Assembly (NCBI GenBank): GCA_029978085.1
Contig: JAPOJV010000005.1
Span: 1 to 50,319, forward strand
Source of the DNA: a bacterium
GTDB lineage: Bacteria; Planctomycetota; Planctomycetia; Pirellulales; UBA1268
Length of the DNA stretch: 50,319 nt
Reading direction: 5' to 3'
Shown: positions 29,334 to 40,664 of the stretch, in pieces
How the letters are laid out: each line of letters starts with the position of its first letter
Position numbering within the stretch: the first letter of the stretch is position 1
The notes under the pieces: model-generated
Database searches by the model: none
The model's input: the letters and a program-made list of their open reading frames with translations, nothing else
Told to the model about the DNA's origin: nothing
Translations under genes and position numbers: made by a program

Positions 29334-30854
29334 TCAGGATGTCGAACCGCCCGCCGGTCGTTCGATCGGCCCCTGCGCTTCGAGCGTCCGGCCTGCCAGG
29401 CCGACGAACGTAGGGGCGTAGCGGAGCGCGCGGAACGTGATGTTCATGCGCACGCCCGGGGTGCCGCTCACGTTCAACGCCGGCGGCACCGTGCCCTGCC
29501 GGACCGGCCCGGCGGCCGTGTCGGGATTGACGTAGCGCCACACGACGCGGCGTGATGCGGTGACCTCGAAGGTGGTGCCTTTCGCGCCGGCGTTCACCAG
29601 CGTATTGCCGTTCGGGAGCCGCTGGGCTCCGGAGACGATCGGCGAGAAGAAGGACGGCGGCCCACGAAAACTCCACACCACGTCGGCCCGGCCATACGCG
29701 GTCGGCGACTGCCTCAGCTCCACGACCGACGAATAGCTCGTGCCGCCGGCGCGGTACCAGCCATTGTTGTAGACGAGGATGTTGCCCGCCCCGGGGAGGC
29801 CGGGACGGATCCACTGGGCGTCGTGCTGCCAGAACAGCGTCTGCTTCGCACGGCGGTTCCAGGCACGGTCATTGCCGTACCGCCACAGCAGGTCGCCCCC
29901 CTTGCCCGCGTTGCCGCCGGTGTGCCCGGCTGCCTCCTCGGTGGTCGTGCTGTGATCGACGATCCAGATCTCGCAGAACTCCCGCACCGACACGATGATC
30001 TGGTCGGTGCTCGCGTTGTAGTCGATCGAATTGAAGTGAGCCCAGTCGGCCAAGTGGGTGTCGGCGGCCTGGCCCCTGGGGACGTAGTTCAGATTGATCA
30101 GTTCGGGGTGCTGGCGGACGCCTTTCGGCCCGAGATAGTTGGGCTTGGTCGGGTCGGACTGCTGGACGACGTGGTCCTTCATGTGCCACTGCCAGACGAT
30201 GCCCTCGCCGAGCCCGGTCGTGACCTCGCCCCCCGCCACGTCCGGATCGATCTCGATGATCACCTCCGGCCAGAGTTCGTTGTCGACGTCGGGATTGAGC
30301 GTGGCCGGATTCCGTCCCATCCCCACGGCCTGCTCGAACGTGAGCCGCTCCCAGGCAATAGCGAGAATGTTGCCGTTGGGCATCACGATGGCATCGTGGT
30401 GCAGCTGATACTGGGCGTTCGAGAGATCGTAAAACCAGGTCACGTTACTGTCCCAATCGAGAATCTCGATCCGTCCGGTTCCCCCGTTGTTGTTGAAGTC
30501 TTTCATCGAGAGGGGAAGGATGCAGTTGCGGAGCAGACGCCCATCCTCGAGCAGGTAGGACGACGTGGCCGGATAGGCACTCGTCCAGCTGTGCACCTTG
30601 TTGCCGGCGTTGTCGATGAGGTGCGTCCGTGGCGCAGTGGACGAGCCGAGCAGCGTGTAGCCCTCGAAGGCCCGGGCCCCGGCGGCCTGGATGAGGCCCA
30701 CCGTGTTGGCGAGCGGGAGCCGCGATTCGAGCGGCTCGTAGCCGGCCAGACGATCGCGTCGGCTCCGGGCTCGAGACGTCCGGCCGACGACTGACGCGAG
30801 GATCGACTGGATGGAAACGTTCACGTGACGGCGCTCCGGGGATGGGCCAATCAT
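29334..30854 (-). CDS. arylsulfotransferase-like propeller, last gene of PKS operon
   Basis: A 506-residue protein with a basic N-terminus followed by GYEPLESRLPLA, similar to the LEPR-type motif at the start of many secreted planctomycete proteins. The rest resembles the ASST family beta-propeller: LLEDGRLLRNC, RIEILDWDSNVTWFYDLS, LHHDAIVMPNGNILAIAWE, DWAHFNSIDYNASTDQIIVS, WQHDAQWI and RLPNGNTLVN. Family members use a histidine to move sulfate between phenols; several candidate His residues (LHHD, WAHFN, WQHD) are present but I cannot say which is catalytic. Its ATG at 30854 overlaps the TGA of the thioester reductase gene, tying it to the lipid/polyketide operon. It may modify or bind the product outside the cytoplasm. 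Confidence 0.75.
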   Translation of the reverse strand: MIGPSPERRHVNVSIQSILASVVGRTSRARSRRDRLAGYEPLESRLPLANTVGLIQAAGARAFEGYTLLGSSTAPRTHLIDNAGNKVHSWTSAYPATSSYLLEDGRLLRNCILPLSMKDFNNNGGTGRIEILDWDSNVTWFYDLSNAQYQLHHDAIVMPNGNILAIAWERLTFEQAVGMGRNPATLNPDVDNELWPEVIIEIDPDVAGGEVTTGLGEGIVWQWHMKDHVVQQSDPTKPNYLGPKGVRQHPELINLNYVPRGQAADTHLADWAHFNSIDYNASTDQIIVSVREFCEIWIVDHSTTTEEAAGHTGGNAGKGGDLLWRYGNDRAWNRRAKQTLFWQHDAQWIRPGLPGAGNILVYNNGWYRAGGTSYSSVVELRQSPTAYGRADVVWSFRGPPSFFSPIVSGAQRLPNGNTLVNAGAKGTTFEVTASRRVVWRYVNPDTAAGPVRQGTVPPALNVSGTPGVRMNITFRALRYAPTFVGLAGRTLEAQGPIERPAGGSTS

Positions 30855-31999
30855 AGTTCGCGGACGGGCGGCCACCGAAACCTGGCGTCGATGGCGAAGC
30901 GGCAGAGCCGGCGGAGCGTCGCCTCGTCGAGCGGCGGCGCCGGGAGGTCTGGGGCGGCGCGACTCGTCGCCGTGACGTCGAACTCCGGGTCGTCCCGCCA
31001 GTAGGCCCGGTAGACCTCCATCTGATCGCTGAAGAGCCGTGCCAAGACCGCGGGGTCGAACGCGGGGGCAGGCCCGCCGGCGGTGGCCGCAGGCAGTCGC
31101 ACCGCCATCTCCGTCACCATCCGCTCGAACACGGAACAGAGGAGCCCCACGCCCGTGGGCCGCGTGGACGTGAGGTGATAGGTGCTCCCGTGCAGTGCCG
31201 GGTCGATGACGATCCGCGTCATCACCGCCGACACCCAATCGACCGGCACCAGGTTCTTCCGCTCCTGGCCGGTCATGCCCAGGGCGTCGAGCAGCGAGCC
31301 TGGCTCGAGTGACGCCTGCACGAACGACTCGACGAACGGCTGCACGATCCGCAGCGGCTTGTAAAAGCCATGGAACGTGTTCGTGAAGCCGTTCACGAGG
31401 TCGCCGACGATGATGCTCGGCCGATACACCGTGCACACGTCGAGCCAGTCGGCGGCCCGCATCAACCGCTCCGCCTCGATCTTGCTTCGCTCGTAGTCGT
31501 TGCCCGGCGTCTGGCCGACGTCGAGCTCCGTCTCGAGCACCCGGCCGCGGCGCAGGCCGCACACGTAGGCAGTCGAGACATGATGCAGCCGGCGGATGCC
31601 CGCGGTGCGGCAGAGCTCGAGCACGTGGGCCGTGCCCTGCACGTTGCTCGCATAGGGTTCGCCGTCGCTTACGCGGCGGTCGAACGCGAGGCTCGCCGCG
31701 GCGTGCACGACCTCGCCGACGTTCGCCTCGACCCACTCCAGGGCCGCGGCGGGAAGCCCGAGTCCCGGCACCGTGATGTCCCCCGCGAGGACCACCGGCC
31801 GCGGCACCTCGACGCCCGCCACCTGACGCCAGTCGTCGAGGAGTTCATCGACCCTCGCTTCAGCGCCAGCAGTCTTGCTGCCACGGACGAGCACGGCGAC
31901 CTGCCGGCCCTGCGCCGTGAGATCCCGCAGCAGGAAGCGGCCCAAGAGGCCGGTGGCGCCCGTGAGCAGAATGCAGGATGAAGCAAGCGTCCTATACAT
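30851..31999 (-). CDS. NAD(P)H thioester reductase (SDR-extended)
   Basis: A 382-residue Rossmann protein of the thioester-reductase type (like the R domains of Lys2/NRPS and HglB). It has the cofactor loop LLTGATGLLGRFLLRDL near the N-terminus, VVHAAASLAFDR, VSTAYVCG with the catalytic Thr/Ser side, and YERSKIEAE as the YxxxK motif. VYRPSIIVGD and VPVDWVSAVM follow, as in this family. It would release an acyl chain from the ACP as an aldehyde or alcohol. The start at 31999 overlaps the upstream gene by eight bases; 32023 is a possible longer start. The stop overlaps the next ATG. Confidence 0.85.
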   Translation of the reverse strand: MYRTLASSCILLTGATGLLGRFLLRDLTAQGRQVAVLVRGSKTAGAEARVDELLDDWRQVAGVEVPRPVVLAGDITVPGLGLPAAALEWVEANVGEVVHAAASLAFDRRVSDGEPYASNVQGTAHVLELCRTAGIRRLHHVSTAYVCGLRRGRVLETELDVGQTPGNDYERSKIEAERLMRAADWLDVCTVYRPSIIVGDLVNGFTNTFHGFYKPLRIVQPFVESFVQASLEPGSLLDALGMTGQERKNLVPVDWVSAVMTRIVIDPALHGSTYHLTSTRPTGVGLLCSVFERMVTEMAVRLPAATAGGPAPAFDPAVLARLFSDQMEVYRAYWRDDPEFDVTATSRAAPDLPAPPLDEATLRRLCRFAIDARFRWPPVREL

Positions 32000-32756
32000 G
32001 AATCGCAGCGCCGCCATCGACAACGAGGGTCTGCCCCTGCACGAGGTCGGACAGCGGCGAGGCCAGGAAGAGGACGGCGTCGGCCACGTCGGCGGCCTCC
32101 AGCATCCGCTCGCCCACCATCGTCTTGGTCGTGCGGCCCGCGAACATCTCCGCGGCCCCCGGCAGCCGCCGCGTGGAATCGGTCTCCACGAGCCCAGCCT
32201 CGACCACGTTGACGTTCACGCCGCGGTCGCCGAGTTCCAGCGCCCAATGGCGGGCCAGGCTCACGAGGGCCGCCTTCGTGCCACCGATGAGGCCGTACAT
32301 CGGCAGCGCCATGTGCGTGCCGTGACTCGAGAGCACGACCACTTTGCCGCGACCTGCCGCCGATTCCAGGAGCGGCGCCGCCGCCTTGAGCAGGTGGACG
32401 AACGACAACACGTTCGTGTGCATCGCGGCGTCGAAGTGCCGCTGCGTCGTGACGGCCAGCGGCCGGAAGCCTCCCGTGGCGGCGGCATGCACGAGGATGT
32501 CGAGGCCGCCGCATTCGGCCTTCACGAAGCCGATCATCTCCTCGACGTCTTCCTGCTCGCCCACGTCGGCCCGGATGCAGGCGGCCTTGCGGCCCATGGC
32601 GGCGATCGCCTCCGCCACCTCCTCGGCCTCGCGGCCGCTCGTCACGTAGTTGACGACGACGTCGGCGCCCGCCTCCGCCAGCCGCAGGGCGCAGGCCTTG
32701 CCGATGCCACGGCTCGAGCCGGTGACGAGGGCCACTTTCCCGGTGAGATCGATCAT
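31992..32756 (-). CDS. FabL-like SDR, probable enoyl reductase
   Basis: A 254-residue short-chain dehydrogenase with TGSSRGIGKACALRLAEAG as the cofactor loop, HAAATGGF, and LSSHGTHMALPMYG in the active-site strand. The catalytic Tyr (Y154) and Lys (K161) are spaced Y-x6-K (YGLIGGTK), as in enoyl-ACP reductases FabI/FabL, and not Y-x3-K as in ketoreductases. The end LVQGQTLVVDGGAAI is typical of the family. Since the synthase next door has no enoyl-reductase domain, this protein probably supplies that step in trans. It begins one base after the stop of the PPTase gene. Confidence 0.85.
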   Translation of the reverse strand: MIDLTGKVALVTGSSRGIGKACALRLAEAGADVVVNYVTSGREAEEVAEAIAAMGRKAACIRADVGEQEDVEEMIGFVKAECGGLDILVHAAATGGFRPLAVTTQRHFDAAMHTNVLSFVHLLKAAAPLLESAAGRGKVVVLSSHGTHMALPMYGLIGGTKAALVSLARHWALELGDRGVNVNVVEAGLVETDSTRRLPGAAEMFAGRTTKTMVGERMLEAADVADAVLFLASPLSDLVQGQTLVVDGGAAIHV

Positions 32757-32757
32757 G

Positions 32758-33408
32758 TCAGTCACTCCCTGCCTGGTGTTCGACGCGTATGGAGGCGGCA
32801 GCCACGGCGATGGCCACGAGGTGCGTGCCGGCTTCGGTGAACACACCCCGACCACAGACGCGGCGATAACGACCGCAAACGGTCCAGCAAAAGCCGGCGG
32901 CGTCGAGCCGCTCGATTGCCACGGCGCGTGGCCGAAATCCATCGTCGAGGCGGGCGGCCTTGAAAGCGGCTTCCTTGGCGGCCCAGAGCCGCGGCCGCAG
33001 GAGGCCGTCGTCAGGAAACAGCGCGAGTTCCGCGGGCGTGAACCAGACGTCGAGCGCAGGTCCGGCCTCACCCGGATCGACGATGTCGAGGCCGACGCCG
33101 GCCGTGCCGCAGACGGCGGCACCGCACAGCCCGCCGGCATGCGACAGCGACACGGAGACCGTGGCCCCCCTGCCCCGCACCATCGCCAGCGGGCGGCCCG
33201 ATGGCAGAAGCGCCGCGACGCGGACCAGTCGTCGCTCGCATCCGCTGTGCGCGGCGACGAGATCCTCGGCGAGCCGGGCGGCCGCGGCCGAGATCCCGCT
33301 GCGATCGACCGCCTCGTCGATCGCGAGATCCACGTGGCAGCCGGCCACGTCGAGGCCGCGGTCGATGCGTGCGCGGGGCAGGCGAGCCTGCGGCAGGCTG
33401 TCGATCAT
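32758..33408 (-). CDS. Sfp-type 4'-phosphopantetheinyl transferase
   Basis: A 216-residue PPTase that attaches the phosphopantetheine arm to a carrier protein serine. Signature motifs are VSLSHAGGLC, GVGLDIVDPGE (magnesium-binding Asp) and WAAKEAAFKAAR (the W..KEA.FK motif). It is probably dedicated to the ACP of the adjacent synthase (S1270). Its ATG overlaps the stop of the synthase gene (ATGA at 33405-33408), so it is made in step with its substrate. The C-terminus is beta-rich and somewhat Cys-rich. Confidence 0.9.
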   Translation of the reverse strand: MIDSLPQARLPRARIDRGLDVAGCHVDLAIDEAVDRSGISAAAARLAEDLVAAHSGCERRLVRVAALLPSGRPLAMVRGRGATVSVSLSHAGGLCGAAVCGTAGVGLDIVDPGEAGPALDVWFTPAELALFPDDGLLRPRLWAAKEAAFKAARLDDGFRPRAVAIERLDAAGFCWTVCGRYRRVCGRGVFTEAGTHLVAIAVAAASIRVEHQAGSD

Positions 33409-36400
33409 GGACGGCCTCGCTCGGCGGAGATGACGGCCAGATGCAGCCCATCGAGTGCGAGGATCGCCCGGCCGTCGTCGCCGAACAGCACCAGGTCGTA
33501 GACACTCTCCCGCTCGTCGTTCGAGCGGAAGAGGATCCGCGTGACGCAGGTCTCGCCGGCCCGTGGACTGCCCGTGATTCGCAGCCGCTCGAACCGCACC
33601 GGCACCTCCACCCGCAGCCCGCAGAGGATGTAGGAGTAGACGCCGCAGGCCACGATGCAGCCGTCGAGCAGTGCGACCGGCAGGGTCCAGCCCGCGGCCC
33701 CGCGCGGGGCCGCGACGACGTCGGCGGCAGGGGCGACGAGGCGGCCCCAGCCGCCGCTCCGATCGAGGAAGAGGCCTGTCAGCGTGCGAAACGACTCACC
33801 GTGCCAGAGCGGCGCGGCGTCGGCATAGACCATCGGGTTGAAGGGCAGCGGCGGCTCGGACGCGTATGCCACGATCGGCTCGGCCGCCCCGGTCGCGACG
33901 AGCCCACGCAGGGCGATCCGCTCGTCGGCGGCCGGCTGCACGTCGGCCGTACCGGCGGCGACCCGGCCCTCCGCCCGCACGGCGCCGTCGCCCGCGGCCA
34001 TCCCCTCGACCCGCACCTGCCGCACCTGATCGGTCGAAAACGCAATCGGCCGCTCGACGTAGAAATCCCGAATCTCCTCCACGCGGCCACACGCCCCGGC
34101 CGCGAGGGTCGCCTGCGCGAGCAGCTCCGCTCCCATCACCGCCGGCAGCAGCGGCCGTCCGAACTGCAGGTGATCGAGCAGGAAGCGATCCGTGGTCGAA
34201 TCGAGTCGGAACACGACGTCCGTCGACGCGGCCCCGGTCTGCACCGCTTCGACCAGGCTGCCCCGTGGCGTGGATGACGCCGCGCGGGCGACGACCGCAT
34301 CCGGCACGCAGGCCGGCTCGGTCACCAGCACCTCCGCCTCGGGCAGGCCCGCCTCCAGCTCGTCCATGAACCGGCGAACGCCTTCGGCCAGCGGCATGAA
34401 CCGCAGGCCAAACTGCTCGAGCACGAACCGACTCTCGGGCCGGCACGCCATGCCCACCTCGTCCCAGGCATGCCAATGAAACACCGTCGTTCGCAGGCCA
34501 CTCCGGCGGCGGTCGGCGAGAATCTTCGCCAGCATGTCGTTGGCCAGCGAATAGTCGGCCTGACCGTGGCCACCGAGGCGACCGCTCGTCGAACCGAAGC
34601 CGACGACGGCCTCCAGCGCCGTCGGATCGAGTGCCGCGAGGAGATGCTCGATCCCCAGGCACTTCGGACCCAGCGTGGCCGCGAGCGCCTCGGGCGTCTT
34701 CTTCTCGAAGCGGCAGGCCGACTCGAACCCGGCACCGTGCAGCACGCCCCGCACGGGTCCCATCGTTGCCGTCACCCAGCCCACGAGCGAACGCACGGCG
34801 GCCTCATCGGCGAGATCACAGGCGACGTATCTCGCTTCGACTCCGTGCTCACGGAACCGGGCCAGCGACGTTTCGATCTCGATCGACTTCTCGACCCTCC
34901 GCCAGGCAGACCGGGGATCGGTGCCCTGGCCACGGGCATCGAGCATCACGCGGCTCCTGAGCTCCGTGCGCCCTGCCTCGTCGAGCGAAAGCCACGCTGG
35001 ATGGACGGCGACAGGATTCGTCGATCCGACGACCGCGAGAACGAGCCCGTGCCGGCGGGCAAGCTCGAGGGCACACGCCGCCGTCACGCCCCGTGCGCCT
35101 CCGGTCACGATCCATACGCTGCCACGGGCGAGCGACGCCAGCGGCGCTCCCGGCTGCAGATGCCGCTCGCAGGCCGCGACGGTCACCCGGCGGCCGGTTA
35201 CGAAGCCCACCTCGACCGGGCCGGCGGCGTCCTCCATCTCGCTGACGACGACGGAGGACAGTTGCGAAGGGGCCCCCGCCTGCGACGCGTCGAGCACGCG
35301 AACGTGGAGCGCGGGGAACTCGCGGGCGATGCCCTTGAAGAGTCCGGTGACCGCGCCCCCTGCGACGTCGCCGAGCGCTCCCGAGATGCCGAAGTCACCG
35401 CCGAGATCGACCACCGCGGTGAGCGTGGCCGACGCGAGATCGCCCACCTTGCTCCGGATCGCAATCCATCGCTGGCAGGCGAAGAACGGCACCTCGACGG
35501 TGCCGTGGCATCGCCGCGTCCAGTCACAGCCGCGGTCGTGCTGTCGGAACGCGATGATCAGGTGCCGCACCGGGCCGTTTCGCTCGGCGCGTTCGATAGC
35601 TGCGACCGCATCCGCCATGGATTCGCACCTGACGGACACCGCAACGCCGTCCCGTGCTTCGATCGCCCGCGCGAGCGAATCAGCAAGCTCACCGTCTCCC
35701 AGGATCAGCACCCGCTCGCCAGCCAAGCTCCGCCCGCGCCGCGGGGGCCCGAGCTCGCGCGTGGTGAGTGCATACCGCCGCGTGATCTCGCTGCCACCGC
35801 GTGGCTGCTGCGCCGAGCACGAACGGGCCCGCACGGCTCCACGCCAGGCCGCGCCGTCGATGGCCGCATCACTCCCGATCCATGGGCCGGTGAAGGGACC
35901 GCCCGAAACGGCGGCCGCGCCCATCTGCGTCACGCCACATGCGACCCAGGCGCAGGCGGTGGAGAGGGCATCGCGGGCCGCGGTGTGCTCACGGTCGAGC
36001 AGGGCCGCGAGGGCCTGGGGGCCGGCGACGGCGCCGTCGGCCAGGGCCACCCGCGCGAGTGGCGACCGCGCATCGCACGCTGAGAAACTCCGGTCCGTGG
36101 TGCCGGTCACGTCGGCACACACGACGGCCCGGGGAGGCAGTGCCCGCCCGCCGATCAGCCGCTCGGCATCCGCGGTCGAACGGCAGGTCGCGGCGATCTC
36201 TTCCACCACGGCAGTCGCCGCCTCGTTGGCGCCGCCGGTTGCGTGAGCAGCCACCACGATCAGACCGGCGTCGTTCCAGCCCACGGCTGCACCCGGCATG
36301 CCCGGCACGCCGACGAGCGTGGCGCGAAGCCCATGCGACTCGACCCGCCGCACCGTCGGCGTGGCGTGGCGGCCAAAGCAGGCGATCAGCCCACGCGGAG

Positions 36401-39400
36401 CCGAGGGATCGGCCGGCGCGACGAGCAGGGCAGCGAAGCCGCCCCGGATGGCGGCCACGTCGACCGGGGCGGGCACAGCGCCGGCTGTTCGCGGCGCGAC
36501 CGGCTTCGACTTCGCCTCGGTGGCCGCGGCCGAACGTCCACCCACCCGCGGGAGCATGTAGTCGAGGAGGTGCCGCAATGTGAGGAATTCGTCGAGCGAG
36601 ACGCCATCGTCTGCCTCCAGGCCATAGTTCTGGCCGATCTCGCCGAAGAGCTGCGCCTTGCGGATGCTGTCGATGCCGAGATCGGCCTCCAGATCGGCAT
36701 CGAGTTCCACGATCTCGCGTGGATAGCCCGTCTGCTCGACGACGAAGTCGATGAGAAACGCTTCGATCGTGGCGTCTTTGCCGAGACCGTCCGCGTCGCC
36801 ATGCCCGACGCGAGCCGGGGCGGACGGGCTCGATCCTGCCCGGTTCCGCTCGCGGCGGCGGGCCGTGGCATCGAACGACACGACGGTGCCGCGGGCCGGT
36901 CGTGGCTTCCGCGCGGACGGGCACGAGCCACGCGAGACCGCCGCCGGCTCGTGCGGCCGAATCGCGCCGGCCGCTTCGAGCTGCTCCCGCAGCCGCGCGA
37001 GCTGTTCGCCGGCGGCCCGGCCGCGCTGATCGAACTGCAGGAACGTGCAGCCCGCGCGGCCGTCGAGGATCCGCCTCGTCAGGCCGGTCAGAACGCCCGC
37101 GGGGCCGACTTCGACGAACGTGCGAACGCCCGCCGCATGGAGCCGCTCGATCACGCCGATCCACCGCACGGTGTCGGTCATCTGCCGGACGAGGCTGTGG
37201 CGAACGGCCGCTGGATCGGACATCGCCCCGACGGTGGTGCTGCTGTATGTCGGGGTCATCGGCGGCTTGATCGGGATCGCCGTGATCGCGACAGCCAGCT
37301 GCTCGGCCGCGCGACCGAGCAAGGGCGTGTGGAACGGGCTGGGCACGGCGAGCCGCTTCGACTTCACCCCCCGCACATCCAGCAGCACCTCGACAGCATC
37401 GACCACGCGGGCCGTGCCGCCGATCACGAACTGCTCGGGTGCATTTTCCGCGCACACCCACACCTGTCCCGCGAACGGCTGAATCGCCGCCTGCACGGTG
37501 TTGCGGTCCGCGATCACGGAGAGCATCGCCCCGTCACGAGGGCCGTGCTGCTCGACAGCGTCGGCCCGGGCCCGCGTGGCCCGGGCGCCATCCTCGACCG
37601 TCCAGGCGGCCGTCGCGGCTAACGCGGGAAACTCGCCGAAACTGTGGCTCGCCACGACGTCCGGCGAGAACCCCATGCCACGCAGCACCTCCCAGGCGAA
37701 CAGGTCTCCCAGATACATCGCCCACTGCGTGTCCCAGATTCGGGTGCCGAGACCGTTGTCGGGCCGCCAGGCGATCTCGGCGAGCGTTTCATGGCCGAGT
37801 CCACGGGCCATGCCGTCGAGCCGTGCGAGTGCGCCGCTGGCCTCAGCCGACTCGGAGACGAGCCCGCGGAACATGTCGGTGTATTGCGCCCCCTGCCCAG
37901 GAAACAGGGCGGCGACGAGCGGCCTGCCGGAGGGCCGCACCTCTGCCTGCGGCGTGGGCGAGACCGTGGCAGCCTGCGCCGCCGCCCCCACCTCGATCCG
38001 GCCCACGAGCGGGCCCTGGGAGATGGTGATGATCCCGTCAGTACGGGCGTTCGTGGCCGCGAGCACCTCGGCGGCCGCGGCCGCGGCGCCCGTGTGGCCA
38101 AACACCTTCGCCAGCGACGGCGGCGCGGAGCAGGCTGCCACGGCCGTCGACCACACCTCGGCGCTGCCGATAATGCCGCGGATCCGGTTGCCCGCAGCGC
38201 GGGCGTCCGTGAGTCGCTTGAGCACGAACACCACCGCGCCCTCGCCCGGCACCGCCGCATCGGCTTCGGTGCCGAGCTTGCCGTTCAGCGACAGTCCCTC
38301 GAAGGCCATGAGGTCGAGTGACCGCTGGCCCGCCGCACAGATCACCGCATCGCAGTCGCCCAGGCGAAGCATGTCGGCCGCCGCCGAGACCGCCGAAACG
38401 CTCGCACACGCGCCGGAATCGACCGCCAGCGCGCCCCCCATGAGATCGAAGGTCTTCGTGAGCCGGCTGGCGAGCGTGCTGCTCGTGAAGCTGCCCGTCT
38501 CGTCCAGAAGGGCCGGCATCCGCTCGAGAAGCAGCGTTTCATAGGCCTCCACGATCCGGCCACTGTCGGCCGCCGCGACGCCGCGACGCGCGAGGGCGGC
38601 CCGCAGCTCCCTGACCGTCTCGGGCAGTCGGAGGCCCATCTGTAAGTGGTTGGCGAAGTCGCCACCGAAGAGCGTGCCGACGACGACGCCCGTCCGCGTG
38701 CGATCGAGGCCGGCCTGCGGGCCGCCGGCATCGGCAATCGCCGCATCGGCCGCCTCGAGCAGCATGAACTGCAGCGGGTTGGCCGCGGCAATCTGCTTCG
38801 GCGGCACCCTGTGGCGGCGCCAGTCGTAGGCGAAATCGCGAACGAATCCGCCCTGGTCAGATGTCGTGTGCCACGTCCGCGGACCGGAGCGGTCGAGGCT
38901 GCGGGCCACCTGCCAGCGGTCCGCCGGCACCGCCCCGACCGCCGTTTCGCCGCGATCGACCCGGGCAAAAAAGTCGTCGAGCGAGAAGGCCCCGGGGAGC
39001 ACGCAGCCGGCACCCACGATCGCGATCCGATCGTCGTCGGTCGGCCTCGACGCACACACCGGCGGAACGGCCGTCGGCAGGTACTCAGCAACGGCAACGT
39101 GGACGTTGAGTCCCCCGATGCCGAAGGCGTTGACGGCCGCCTGACGGGGCGAGCCATCGGCGCGCGGCGGCCAGGCGAGCGGCTCACGAGGCACCATGAA
39201 TGGACTGTTGAGCCAATCGAATTCACTGCTCAGCTCATCGCAGGTGGAACCCGGCGGAATCACGCCGTGCTCCATCGCCAGCACCACCTTGACGAGGCTG
39301 GCGAGGCCGGCCGTTTCGAGCGTGTGACCGATGACGGCCTTCACGCTGCCGATGGGAATCTTCCGGCCGTGGGGCAGGTGCGGCCGGAGTGATCGGGCCA

Positions 39401-40475
39401 GGGCCGACAACTCCGTCGCATCGCCCACCCGGGTGCTGGTGGCATGCGCCTCGATGAAGTCGATCTGCCCCAGGTCGGCCGGATCGGCATAGGCCCGCTC
39501 CACCGCCATGGCCTGCCCCTCCTGCCGCGGCGCCCAGAGGCTCTTCCCCTTGCCGTCACTGGCGACGCCGAGGCCGCGGATCACGCCCCGGACGCGGTCG
39601 CCATCCGCGAGCGCGCGGGAGAGCGTCTTGATCACGATGGCGACGGAGCCCTCCGCCGTCACGAGCCCGTCGGCTGCCTCACCAAAGGGGCACGAGCCGG
39701 TGTTGCTCACCGACTGCGCGGCCGAGAAGAGCACGAGGCTGTCGGACTTGCAGTAGGACGCGCCCCCCACGATCGCCTGATCGATGCTGCCTCGCGCCAA
39801 CGCCCGACCGGCGATCGCCAACGCCTGCAGCGATGAGGCACAGGCGGCATCGACCGCGAGGAAGGGGCCGTCGAGCTTCAGCGCCTCGTGCACGATCTGC
39901 GCCGCGCCGTGGGCGCCGAGGTCGAGCTTCTCGCCCGGTCGGCGGCCCGGATACCGACGCCGCACGGCATCGACCACCTCTGCCGCGACGTCGCCGACGG
40001 TGGCGCCGAGGAGGTCACGGGCCGGCCCCGTCTCGGCCAGCAGCGACGCCGCCTCGTCGATGCCGGTTGCATAGACGATGTCGCCGATCCGCGTGCTGCC
40101 GCCGGTGTGGCCGACGTAGATGCCCGTTCTGCAATCACGCGGCATGGCGAAGGGATTCAGCCCCGCGTCAGAGCAGGCCAGCGACGCCACCTCGAGGAAG
40201 ATGTGATGTGCGATGTCGTAGCGAGCGACCAGGTCGGCCGTGATCGGGCAGGCCGCCGGATCAACCGGCCTATCGGAGAGGACGCCGCCCAGTTCCGAAT
40301 AGCTCCTGCCGACCCGACTCTTCTCGGGGTGGAAGTAGAGGTCGCGAGGCAGTCGCGATTCGGGCAATGGCCCCCAGGCAATGCCGCTGCTGACTACGAG
40401 CCGCCAAAAAGCGTCGAGGCCGTCGGCACCGGGCAGGCGGCAGGCCATGCCCACGATGGCAAGTGGTTCGTTCAC
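33405..40475 (-). CDS. iterative-type PKS/secondary-lipid synthase KS-KS-AT-ACP-KR-DH
   Basis: A 2356-residue megasynthase resembling PfaA and HglE-like enzymes. KS1 (about 1-430) has a complete triad: C212 in DAACASSL, H344 in EAHATSTRVG and H384 in GHTLETAG. A second KS-like domain (about 480-825) has a cysteine (C690, SGACASV) but lacks the EAHGTGT region. AT is about 850-1130 with S945 in SHSFGE. One ACP is about 1234-1307 with S1270 in LGIDSIRKA. A long linker or pseudo-KR (about 1310-1780) precedes the KR (TGGARGVTAACALELAR, then STSGRLGGHGQADYSLAND). A double-hotdog DH (about 2087-2352) has H2102 in DHLQFGRPLLP and D2271 in LLDGC. No thioesterase or ER domain is present. GTG at 40475 is chosen as start; the frame further upstream only shadows metK. 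Confidence 0.92.
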   Translation of the reverse strand: MNEPLAIVGMACRLPGADGLDAFWRLVVSSGIAWGPLPESRLPRDLYFHPEKSRVGRSYSELGGVLSDRPVDPAACPITADLVARYDIAHHIFLEVASLACSDAGLNPFAMPRDCRTGIYVGHTGGSTRIGDIVYATGIDEAASLLAETGPARDLLGATVGDVAAEVVDAVRRRYPGRRPGEKLDLGAHGAAQIVHEALKLDGPFLAVDAACASSLQALAIAGRALARGSIDQAIVGGASYCKSDSLVLFSAAQSVSNTGSCPFGEAADGLVTAEGSVAIVIKTLSRALADGDRVRGVIRGLGVASDGKGKSLWAPRQEGQAMAVERAYADPADLGQIDFIEAHATSTRVGDATELSALARSLRPHLPHGRKIPIGSVKAVIGHTLETAGLASLVKVVLAMEHGVIPPGSTCDELSSEFDWLNSPFMVPREPLAWPPRADGSPRQAAVNAFGIGGLNVHVAVAEYLPTAVPPVCASRPTDDDRIAIVGAGCVLPGAFSLDDFFARVDRGETAVGAVPADRWQVARSLDRSGPRTWHTTSDQGGFVRDFAYDWRRHRVPPKQIAAANPLQFMLLEAADAAIADAGGPQAGLDRTRTGVVVGTLFGGDFANHLQMGLRLPETVRELRAALARRGVAAADSGRIVEAYETLLLERMPALLDETGSFTSSTLASRLTKTFDLMGGALAVDSGACASVSAVSAAADMLRLGDCDAVICAAGQRSLDLMAFEGLSLNGKLGTEADAAVPGEGAVVFVLKRLTDARAAGNRIRGIIGSAEVWSTAVAACSAPPSLAKVFGHTGAAAAAAEVLAATNARTDGIITISQGPLVGRIEVGAAAQAATVSPTPQAEVRPSGRPLVAALFPGQGAQYTDMFRGLVSESAEASGALARLDGMARGLGHETLAEIAWRPDNGLGTRIWDTQWAMYLGDLFAWEVLRGMGFSPDVVASHSFGEFPALAATAAWTVEDGARATRARADAVEQHGPRDGAMLSVIADRNTVQAAIQPFAGQVWVCAENAPEQFVIGGTARVVDAVEVLLDVRGVKSKRLAVPSPFHTPLLGRAAEQLAVAITAIPIKPPMTPTYSSTTVGAMSDPAAVRHSLVRQMTDTVRWIGVIERLHAAGVRTFVEVGPAGVLTGLTRRILDGRAGCTFLQFDQRGRAAGEQLARLREQLEAAGAIRPHEPAAVSRGSCPSARKPRPARGTVVSFDATARRRERNRAGSSPSAPARVGHGDADGLGKDATIEAFLIDFVVEQTGYPREIVELDADLEADLGIDSIRKAQLFGEIGQNYGLEADDGVSLDEFLTLRHLLDYMLPRVGGRSAAATEAKSKPVAPRTAGAVPAPVDVAAIRGGFAALLVAPADPSAPRGLIACFGRHATPTVRRVESHGLRATLVGVPGMPGAAVGWNDAGLIVVAAHATGGANEAATAVVEEIAATCRSTADAERLIGGRALPPRAVVCADVTGTTDRSFSACDARSPLARVALADGAVAGPQALAALLDREHTAARDALSTACAWVACGVTQMGAAAVSGGPFTGPWIGSDAAIDGAAWRGAVRARSCSAQQPRGGSEITRRYALTTRELGPPRRGRSLAGERVLILGDGELADSLARAIEARDGVAVSVRCESMADAVAAIERAERNGPVRHLIIAFRQHDRGCDWTRRCHGTVEVPFFACQRWIAIRSKVGDLASATLTAVVDLGGDFGISGALGDVAGGAVTGLFKGIAREFPALHVRVLDASQAGAPSQLSSVVVSEMEDAAGPVEVGFVTGRRVTVAACERHLQPGAPLASLARGSVWIVTGGARGVTAACALELARRHGLVLAVVGSTNPVAVHPAWLSLDEAGRTELRSRVMLDARGQGTDPRSAWRRVEKSIEIETSLARFREHGVEARYVACDLADEAAVRSLVGWVTATMGPVRGVLHGAGFESACRFEKKTPEALAATLGPKCLGIEHLLAALDPTALEAVVGFGSTSGRLGGHGQADYSLANDMLAKILADRRRSGLRTTVFHWHAWDEVGMACRPESRFVLEQFGLRFMPLAEGVRRFMDELEAGLPEAEVLVTEPACVPDAVVARAASSTPRGSLVEAVQTGAASTDVVFRLDSTTDRFLLDHLQFGRPLLPAVMGAELLAQATLAAGACGRVEEIRDFYVERPIAFSTDQVRQVRVEGMAAGDGAVRAEGRVAAGTADVQPAADERIALRGLVATGAAEPIVAYASEPPLPFNPMVYADAAPLWHGESFRTLTGLFLDRSGGWGRLVAPAADVVAAPRGAAGWTLPVALLDGCIVACGVYSYILCGLRVEVPVRFERLRITGSPRAGETCVTRILFRSNDERESVYDLVLFGDDGRAILALDGLHLAVISAERGRP

Positions 40476-40564
40476 ATCGGCGTCCGTGTCGTCGCGATCG
40501 ACGGCAGTATGCTTGGCCGGACCTCCGGGGCAACCCCTCGCACACGCGGTTCTCACGCCACCAG

Positions 40565-40593
40565 TTGCCGACTCTCGCCCGAACCCCGATAAT
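40565..40593 (+). promoter_or_regulatory. sigma70-like promoter of metK
   Basis: TTGCCG (40565-40570), a 17-base spacer and GATAAT (40588-40593) form the best promoter in the window. The start site would be near 40600, giving a leader of about 65 bases before GTG at 40665. No SAM riboswitch fold was recognised in this leader. The same 189-base space must also hold the promoter of the minus-strand synthase operon, which I could not locate. Confidence 0.65.
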
Positions 40594-40664
40594 CCGCGGG
40601 AATCGAGGTCCGGACGCCGGACCCACCAGCATCGACCCTCTTCCTCAGGCACGAGGCACCAGCC

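Follow-up and report, generated by a model that had tools for sequence, protein, structure and literature searches.

The window analysed here is a stretch of 50,319 nucleotides from contig JAPOJV010000005.1 of a planctomycete of the Pirellulales (UBA1268), whose draft genome (G000) comprises 3.31 Mb in 263 contigs and is 97.7% complete. On its minus strand, from 40475 down to 29334, lie five genes that may encode a secondary-lipid pathway: an iterative type I synthase of the polyketide synthase (PKS) kind, a phosphopantetheinyl transferase (PPTase), a short-chain dehydrogenase/reductase (SDR), a thioester reductase (TER) and a six-bladed propeller resembling arylsulfate sulfotransferases (ASST). 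All five match curated families and are real genes. The synthase and PPTase genes overlap by 4 bases (33405-33408), one base separates the end of the PPTase gene (32758) from the ATG of the SDR gene (32756), the SDR and TER genes overlap by 8 bases (31992-31999), and the TER and ASST genes share the 4 bases ATGA (30851-30854). These junctions, as given in the initial annotation, are confirmed, and they support the view that the five genes form one operon.

The synthase (33405..40475, minus strand) has a GTG start and 2356 aa. Family matches, motif reading and structure alignment place in it a ketosynthase (KS, residues 1-470), a pseudo-KS resembling a chain-length factor (CLF, ~478-820), an acyltransferase (AT, 855-1137), an acyl carrier protein (ACP, 1241-1306), a spacer, a ketoreductase (KR, 1787-2006) and a dehydratase (DH, 2084-2353). 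A domain-family search detected neither an enoyl reductase (ER) nor a thioesterase (TE) domain in it, as had been read before. The Cys-His-His motifs of KS1 are intact; in KS2 the first His is lost and the Cys position is occupied by Ala, or by Asp in most relatives. The KS-CLF structure of the Moritella polyunsaturated fatty acid (PUFA) synthase (6riw; PMC9138089) aligns with residues 3-719, and therefore KS1 and KS2 are taken as a KS-CLF pair. This CLF-like second KS and the single ACP are features that go beyond the initial annotation. With an active KS, an ACP, a KR and a CLF partner, the synthase has the make-up of the Pfa/Hgl type. It lacks the tandem ACPs that are usual in this type (relatives carry one to three ACPs), which are no requirement for secondary-lipid synthases (Shulse and Allen, PMC3098273). 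Its best NCBIfam match is PfaA (TIGR02813), at 580 bits below the cut-off of 1010. The CLF is shortened, and since the same short form recurs in a genome of a different genus (G449), an assembly error is judged unlikely; the G449 synthase aligns unbroken over residues 1-1233. Plasmid records searched with the synthase gave no match at 80% coverage.

The next three genes encode the putative partner enzymes of the synthase. The PPTase (32758..33408, minus strand; 216 aa) is of the Sfp type by family match (PF01648) and carries the motif WAAKEAAFK. The SDR (31992..32756, minus strand; 254 aa) is a FabL-like protein and a putative enoyl-ACP reductase by family and structure matches. Its Y-x6-K motif (YGLIGGTK) aligns with that of Bacillus subtilis FabL, which is also its nearest solved structure (3oic, 1.2e-49, the runner-up being at 5.8e-34), so the proposed role as an ER acting in trans is upheld. 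The SDR is unusually conserved, with 82-93% identity among the close relatives that carry the cluster. The TER (30851..31999, minus strand) scores 147.4 bits against PF07993 (cut-off 20.1) and has both the GxxGxxG and YxxxK motifs, as GATGLLG and YERSK. The solved structures nearest to it are reductase domains of PKS and nonribosomal peptide synthetase (NRPS) systems, including MxaA, which agrees with the reductive release that had been suggested. In most relatives the TER bears an extra C-terminal SCP2-like domain of ~115 residues (model pLDDT 92; for example L039:21566-21910) that is missing from the proteins of the window, G444 and G449. Alkylsulfatases such as SdsA1 are among the structural matches of this extra domain.

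A survey of 72 genomes of the family, in which the SDR served as the cluster marker, has revealed how far this arrangement extends. The marker is present in 34 of the 72, and the order PKS-PPTase-SDR-TER recurs at ~25 planctomycete loci, mostly metagenome-assembled genomes (MAGs) from lakes by their titles. The conserved unit in relatives is these four genes and not the five-gene set that had been proposed. The ASST gene is absent from most of their operons, the very outcome that had been named beforehand as counting against a conserved set of five. The commonest neighbours of the core in relatives are a PapA-like acyltransferase (PF16911) and Rieske oxygenases. Where the flanks are known, the former lies divergently upstream of the core, one Rieske gene often stands between the PPTase and SDR genes, and another is often convergent with TER. 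Neither a glycosyltransferase nor an HgdBC-type transporter occurs in the operon or is conserved in the flanks of relatives, which does not bear out the earlier idea that the ASST replaces a glycosyltransferase. No PapA or Rieske homolog is found in the window genome at the thresholds used, and the window version is the most compact one, without this tailoring. The flanks of L039, L041, L062 and L066, with PapA-like acyltransferase and Rieske genes around the same core, probably represent a pathway to a hydroxylated, esterified long-chain alcohol. A different layout is seen at L064:6983-21821, with TER, a separate three-ACP gene, an AMP ligase, the synthase with 47% identity in its KS, a PPTase and an SDR.

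The last gene of the operon (29334..30854, minus strand) encodes a protein of 506 aa that matches PF05935 with 80.3 bits (gathering cut-off 24.2). Its AlphaFold model (pLDDT 84, pTM 0.84, residues 1-47 of low confidence) is a six-bladed propeller, with the caprazamycin sulfotransferase Cpz4 as the best match in the PDB (Z 32.4), followed by AssT (Z 25.9) and by an unrelated propeller at 21.6. Besides H152/H153, the protein has H273, N275 and R291, which match H356, N358 and R374 of AssT in a profile alignment, and H344, whose QHD motif aligns with the one in Cpz4. On the basis of this motif and alignment H344 corresponds to H436 of AssT, the sulfated histidine (PMC13426309), and its position is consistent with the same role. 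The H/N/R/H set is kept in 11 of 11 aligned orthologs. The evidence supports a true ASST-family fold, in line with the ASST-like propeller read earlier, with most of the catalytic residues, and a sulfotransferase activity is predicted. Orthologs at L101, L103-L106 and L108 have a long C-terminal repeat extension (GDWDGDGxxxxGLYDP-like) that is missing from the window protein.

The export of this protein, as stated in the initial annotation, stands only in part. No classical signal peptide is evident in the window protein, but several of its paralogs have signal-peptide-like N-termini, and its own clade has near the N-terminus an LExRLxLA motif (LESRLPLA in the window, at 30705-30735, minus strand) that is also found on other proteins of these genomes. 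From the homologs and this planctomycete motif, export is likely. An LExRLxLA-type motif on a protein of a related genome (L135:10719) resembles it and could be a planctomycete sorting signal.

The link between the ASST and the lipid genes does not depend on their adjacency. Only in G444, among ~19 relatives with a known downstream flank, does the ASST gene directly follow TER in the same direction. Three layouts place it near the cluster, namely after TER (window and G444), convergent with TER (G438) and beyond PapA (G400), and in the remaining ortholog-bearing genomes it is on another contig. Nevertheless, the ASST ortholog occurs in 15 of the 72 genomes, and all 15 are SDR-positive (P = 1.6e-6). 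Among genomes at least 90% complete the figure is 7 of 7 (P = 0.0012), and stratification by genus, as a product within genera, gives P = 7e-5; these P values are approximate and take genomes as independent (within genera for the stratified test). ASST distances track those of SDR and TER (Mantel r 0.88, P 2e-4). The orthologs group together in a single clade with support of 97/94, separate from other planctomycete paralogs. By this co-occurrence, the agreement of distances and the single clade, the ASST is tied to the lipid pathway though its gene position varies, and the earlier claim of a link gains support from the co-occurrence. A simple substitution of PapA by the ASST was considered and rejected, as both are present in G400 and G438. 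In G444, the contig with the synthase (C209) carries PapA and is 75% identical, while SDR, TER and ASST are 90-93% identical, and therefore C209 may come from another organism.

The model proposed from these data is a PUFA-synthase-like (Pfa/Hgl-type) secondary-lipid pathway that makes a long-chain n-alkanol and then sulfates its oxygen independently of 3'-phosphoadenosine 5'-phosphosulfate (PAPS), a reading that is given an even chance of being right. By analogy with the families involved, the SDR would supply the ER step in trans in each cycle, the synthase would thereby extend an ACP-bound acyl chain that is long and fully reduced, and TER would free this chain as an aldehyde or, with a second hydride, as a primary alcohol, in line with the reduced long-chain alcohol predicted earlier, which is likely. 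More tentatively, an aryl sulfate could donate its sulfuryl group to H344 of the ASST, in a ping-pong reaction as in AssT and Cpz4, and the ASST might then transfer this group to the alcohol; the resulting long-chain alkyl sulfate would be anionic and lie outside the cytoplasm. A saturated, O-sulfated long-chain alcohol is the most likely product; its assembly and release are read from family knowledge, and its sulfation is inferred from fold, residues and co-occurrence. Aryl sulfotransferases (ASTs) do sulfate primary aliphatic alcohols, including 1-octanol, although slowly (PMC11576661, PMC13426309). In relatives, the same core would be diversified by Rieske oxygenases (hydroxylation) and the PapA-like acyltransferase (esterification).

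Several observations weigh against this model. The SDR does not reach the equivalog cut-off of FabL, its best NCBIfam match (240.6 against 328 bits), nor does TER reach that of TIGR01746 (132 against 213 bits). The ASST lacks the N-terminal beta-sandwich of AssT, and T501 of AssT is replaced by V407, with I, L or V throughout the family. R291, kept in 11 of 11 orthologs, is found in 3 of the 10 planctomycete paralogs examined, and since most of them have lost it, the wider planctomycete ASST-like family may not consist of sulfotransferases only. No ASST was detected in 19 of the 34 SDR-positive genomes, and the genomes of the family are all apparently draft assemblies, mostly MAGs. Known ASTs favour phenols (PMC11576661). 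The operon holds no sulfate-donor gene, and the type III PKS of the window genome (G000:C228:1653-2291), which could supply phenolic sulfate donors, shows no co-distribution with the ASST across the family. In the caprazamycin pathway, a phenolic sulfate carrier is tied to a type III PKS. A co-occurrence of this kind with the ASST is unsupported here, as type III PKS genes score over the cut-off in 46 of the 72 genomes irrespective of the ASST.

It could be argued that the core makes a long-chain alcohol and that the ASST acts on another acceptor (a phenolic lipid, a glycan or a surface polymer) or on a further-decorated product. The preference of ASTs for phenols, the presence of a type III PKS in the genome and the distance of the ASST from the cluster in most relatives would fit this, but the ASST gene overlaps TER in the window and G444, where both are probably translationally coupled, and it is the cluster, rather than the type III PKS, with which the protein co-occurs, which makes such a division of labour unlikely. 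It is likewise improbable that the core provides an aldehyde or alcohol for wax-ester or hydroxylated ester lipids, with the ASST-like protein as a non-catalytic structural or binding propeller or a mere neighbour. The loss of T501, the many SDR-positive genomes without ASST, and PapA and Rieske genes as commonest neighbours favour this view; opposed to it are the H/N/R/H set of all 11 orthologs (R291 being lost in 7 of 10 paralogs), the co-occurrence with SDR and the lack, at the thresholds used, of PapA and Rieske homologs in the window genome. A pathway like that of heterocyst glycolipids, with the sugar transferase elsewhere in the genome, shares the enzyme logic of PKS, PPTase and TER and is very unlikely given that neither a glycosyltransferase nor an HgdBC-type transporter is present in the operon or conserved near it in relatives. 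A PUFA synthase, suggested by the PfaA match and by a KS-CLF resembling PfaC, is rejected as hardly credible on domain content, namely a single DH, no PfaD-type ER, an SDR-type ER and reductive release, besides the PfaA score below the cut-off.

The alkanol sulfate model has partial precedents in known systems. The Pfa and secondary-lipid synthases classified as types A-T by Shulse and Allen in 2011 (PMC3098273) share the KS-CLF, AT, ACP, KR and DH domains and a dedicated PPTase, with a long-chain product presumed. They differ from the window synthase, in which KS-CLF-AT-ACP-KR-DH form one polypeptide with a single ACP, a FabL-type SDR takes the place of the PfaD ER and TER is separate; the planctomycete types I and J also have other layouts. 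The heterocyst glycolipid island hgl (PMC11804610) likewise combines a PKS, a thioester reductase and a PPTase to make long-chain alcohols, whereas the operon has another ER, no HglT glycosyltransferase and no HgdBC transporter, and ASST or PapA/Rieske tailoring is found here instead. The zeamine and fabclavine synthases (PMC13291983) are a precedent for the recruitment of a stand-alone thioester reductase by a Pfa-like synthase, but they add an aminotransferase and NRPS/PKS parts, none of which is in the window operon. Cpz4 (9kf6, 9kf4), an ASST of a natural-product cluster with the QHD motif, has the closest fold over 329 residues; it differs in its liponucleoside substrate and its Streptomyces origin, and identity is ~22% in the aligned part. 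E. coli AssT (3elq, 3ets) shares the propeller and the H/N/R/H active-site residues. A literature search, with most subscription journals outside its coverage, found no description of the PKS-PPTase-SDR-TER-ASST set.

The natural acceptor of most aryl sulfotransferases is unknown (PMC13426309), and this operon offers a concrete, assayable candidate for the AST family. The wider proposal is that long-chain alkanol sulfates, or hydroxyalkanol sulfates where Rieske genes are present, are produced by freshwater planctomycetes through a single-protein PUFA-synthase-like megasynthase coupled to a PAPS-independent sulfotransferase; it is put forward tentatively, with more doubt than confidence. If true, it would give the AST family a natural acceptor and add a bacterial alkyl-sulfate lipid pathway that the literature searched does not describe. 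More generally, the PKS-PPTase-SDR-TER core with swappable PapA, Rieske and ASST tailoring outlines a patchy, family-wide lipid pathway in lake planctomycetes, which could supply fresh waters with long-chain alcohols, hydroxyalcohols and esters.

Promoter and terminator scans of the GC-rich operon region gave no usable result. The operon is bordered downstream by kdtA and secA, which are convergent with it, and upstream by the divergent metK; the intergenic region between the latter and the synthase (40476..40664, no strand) presumably holds the operon promoter.

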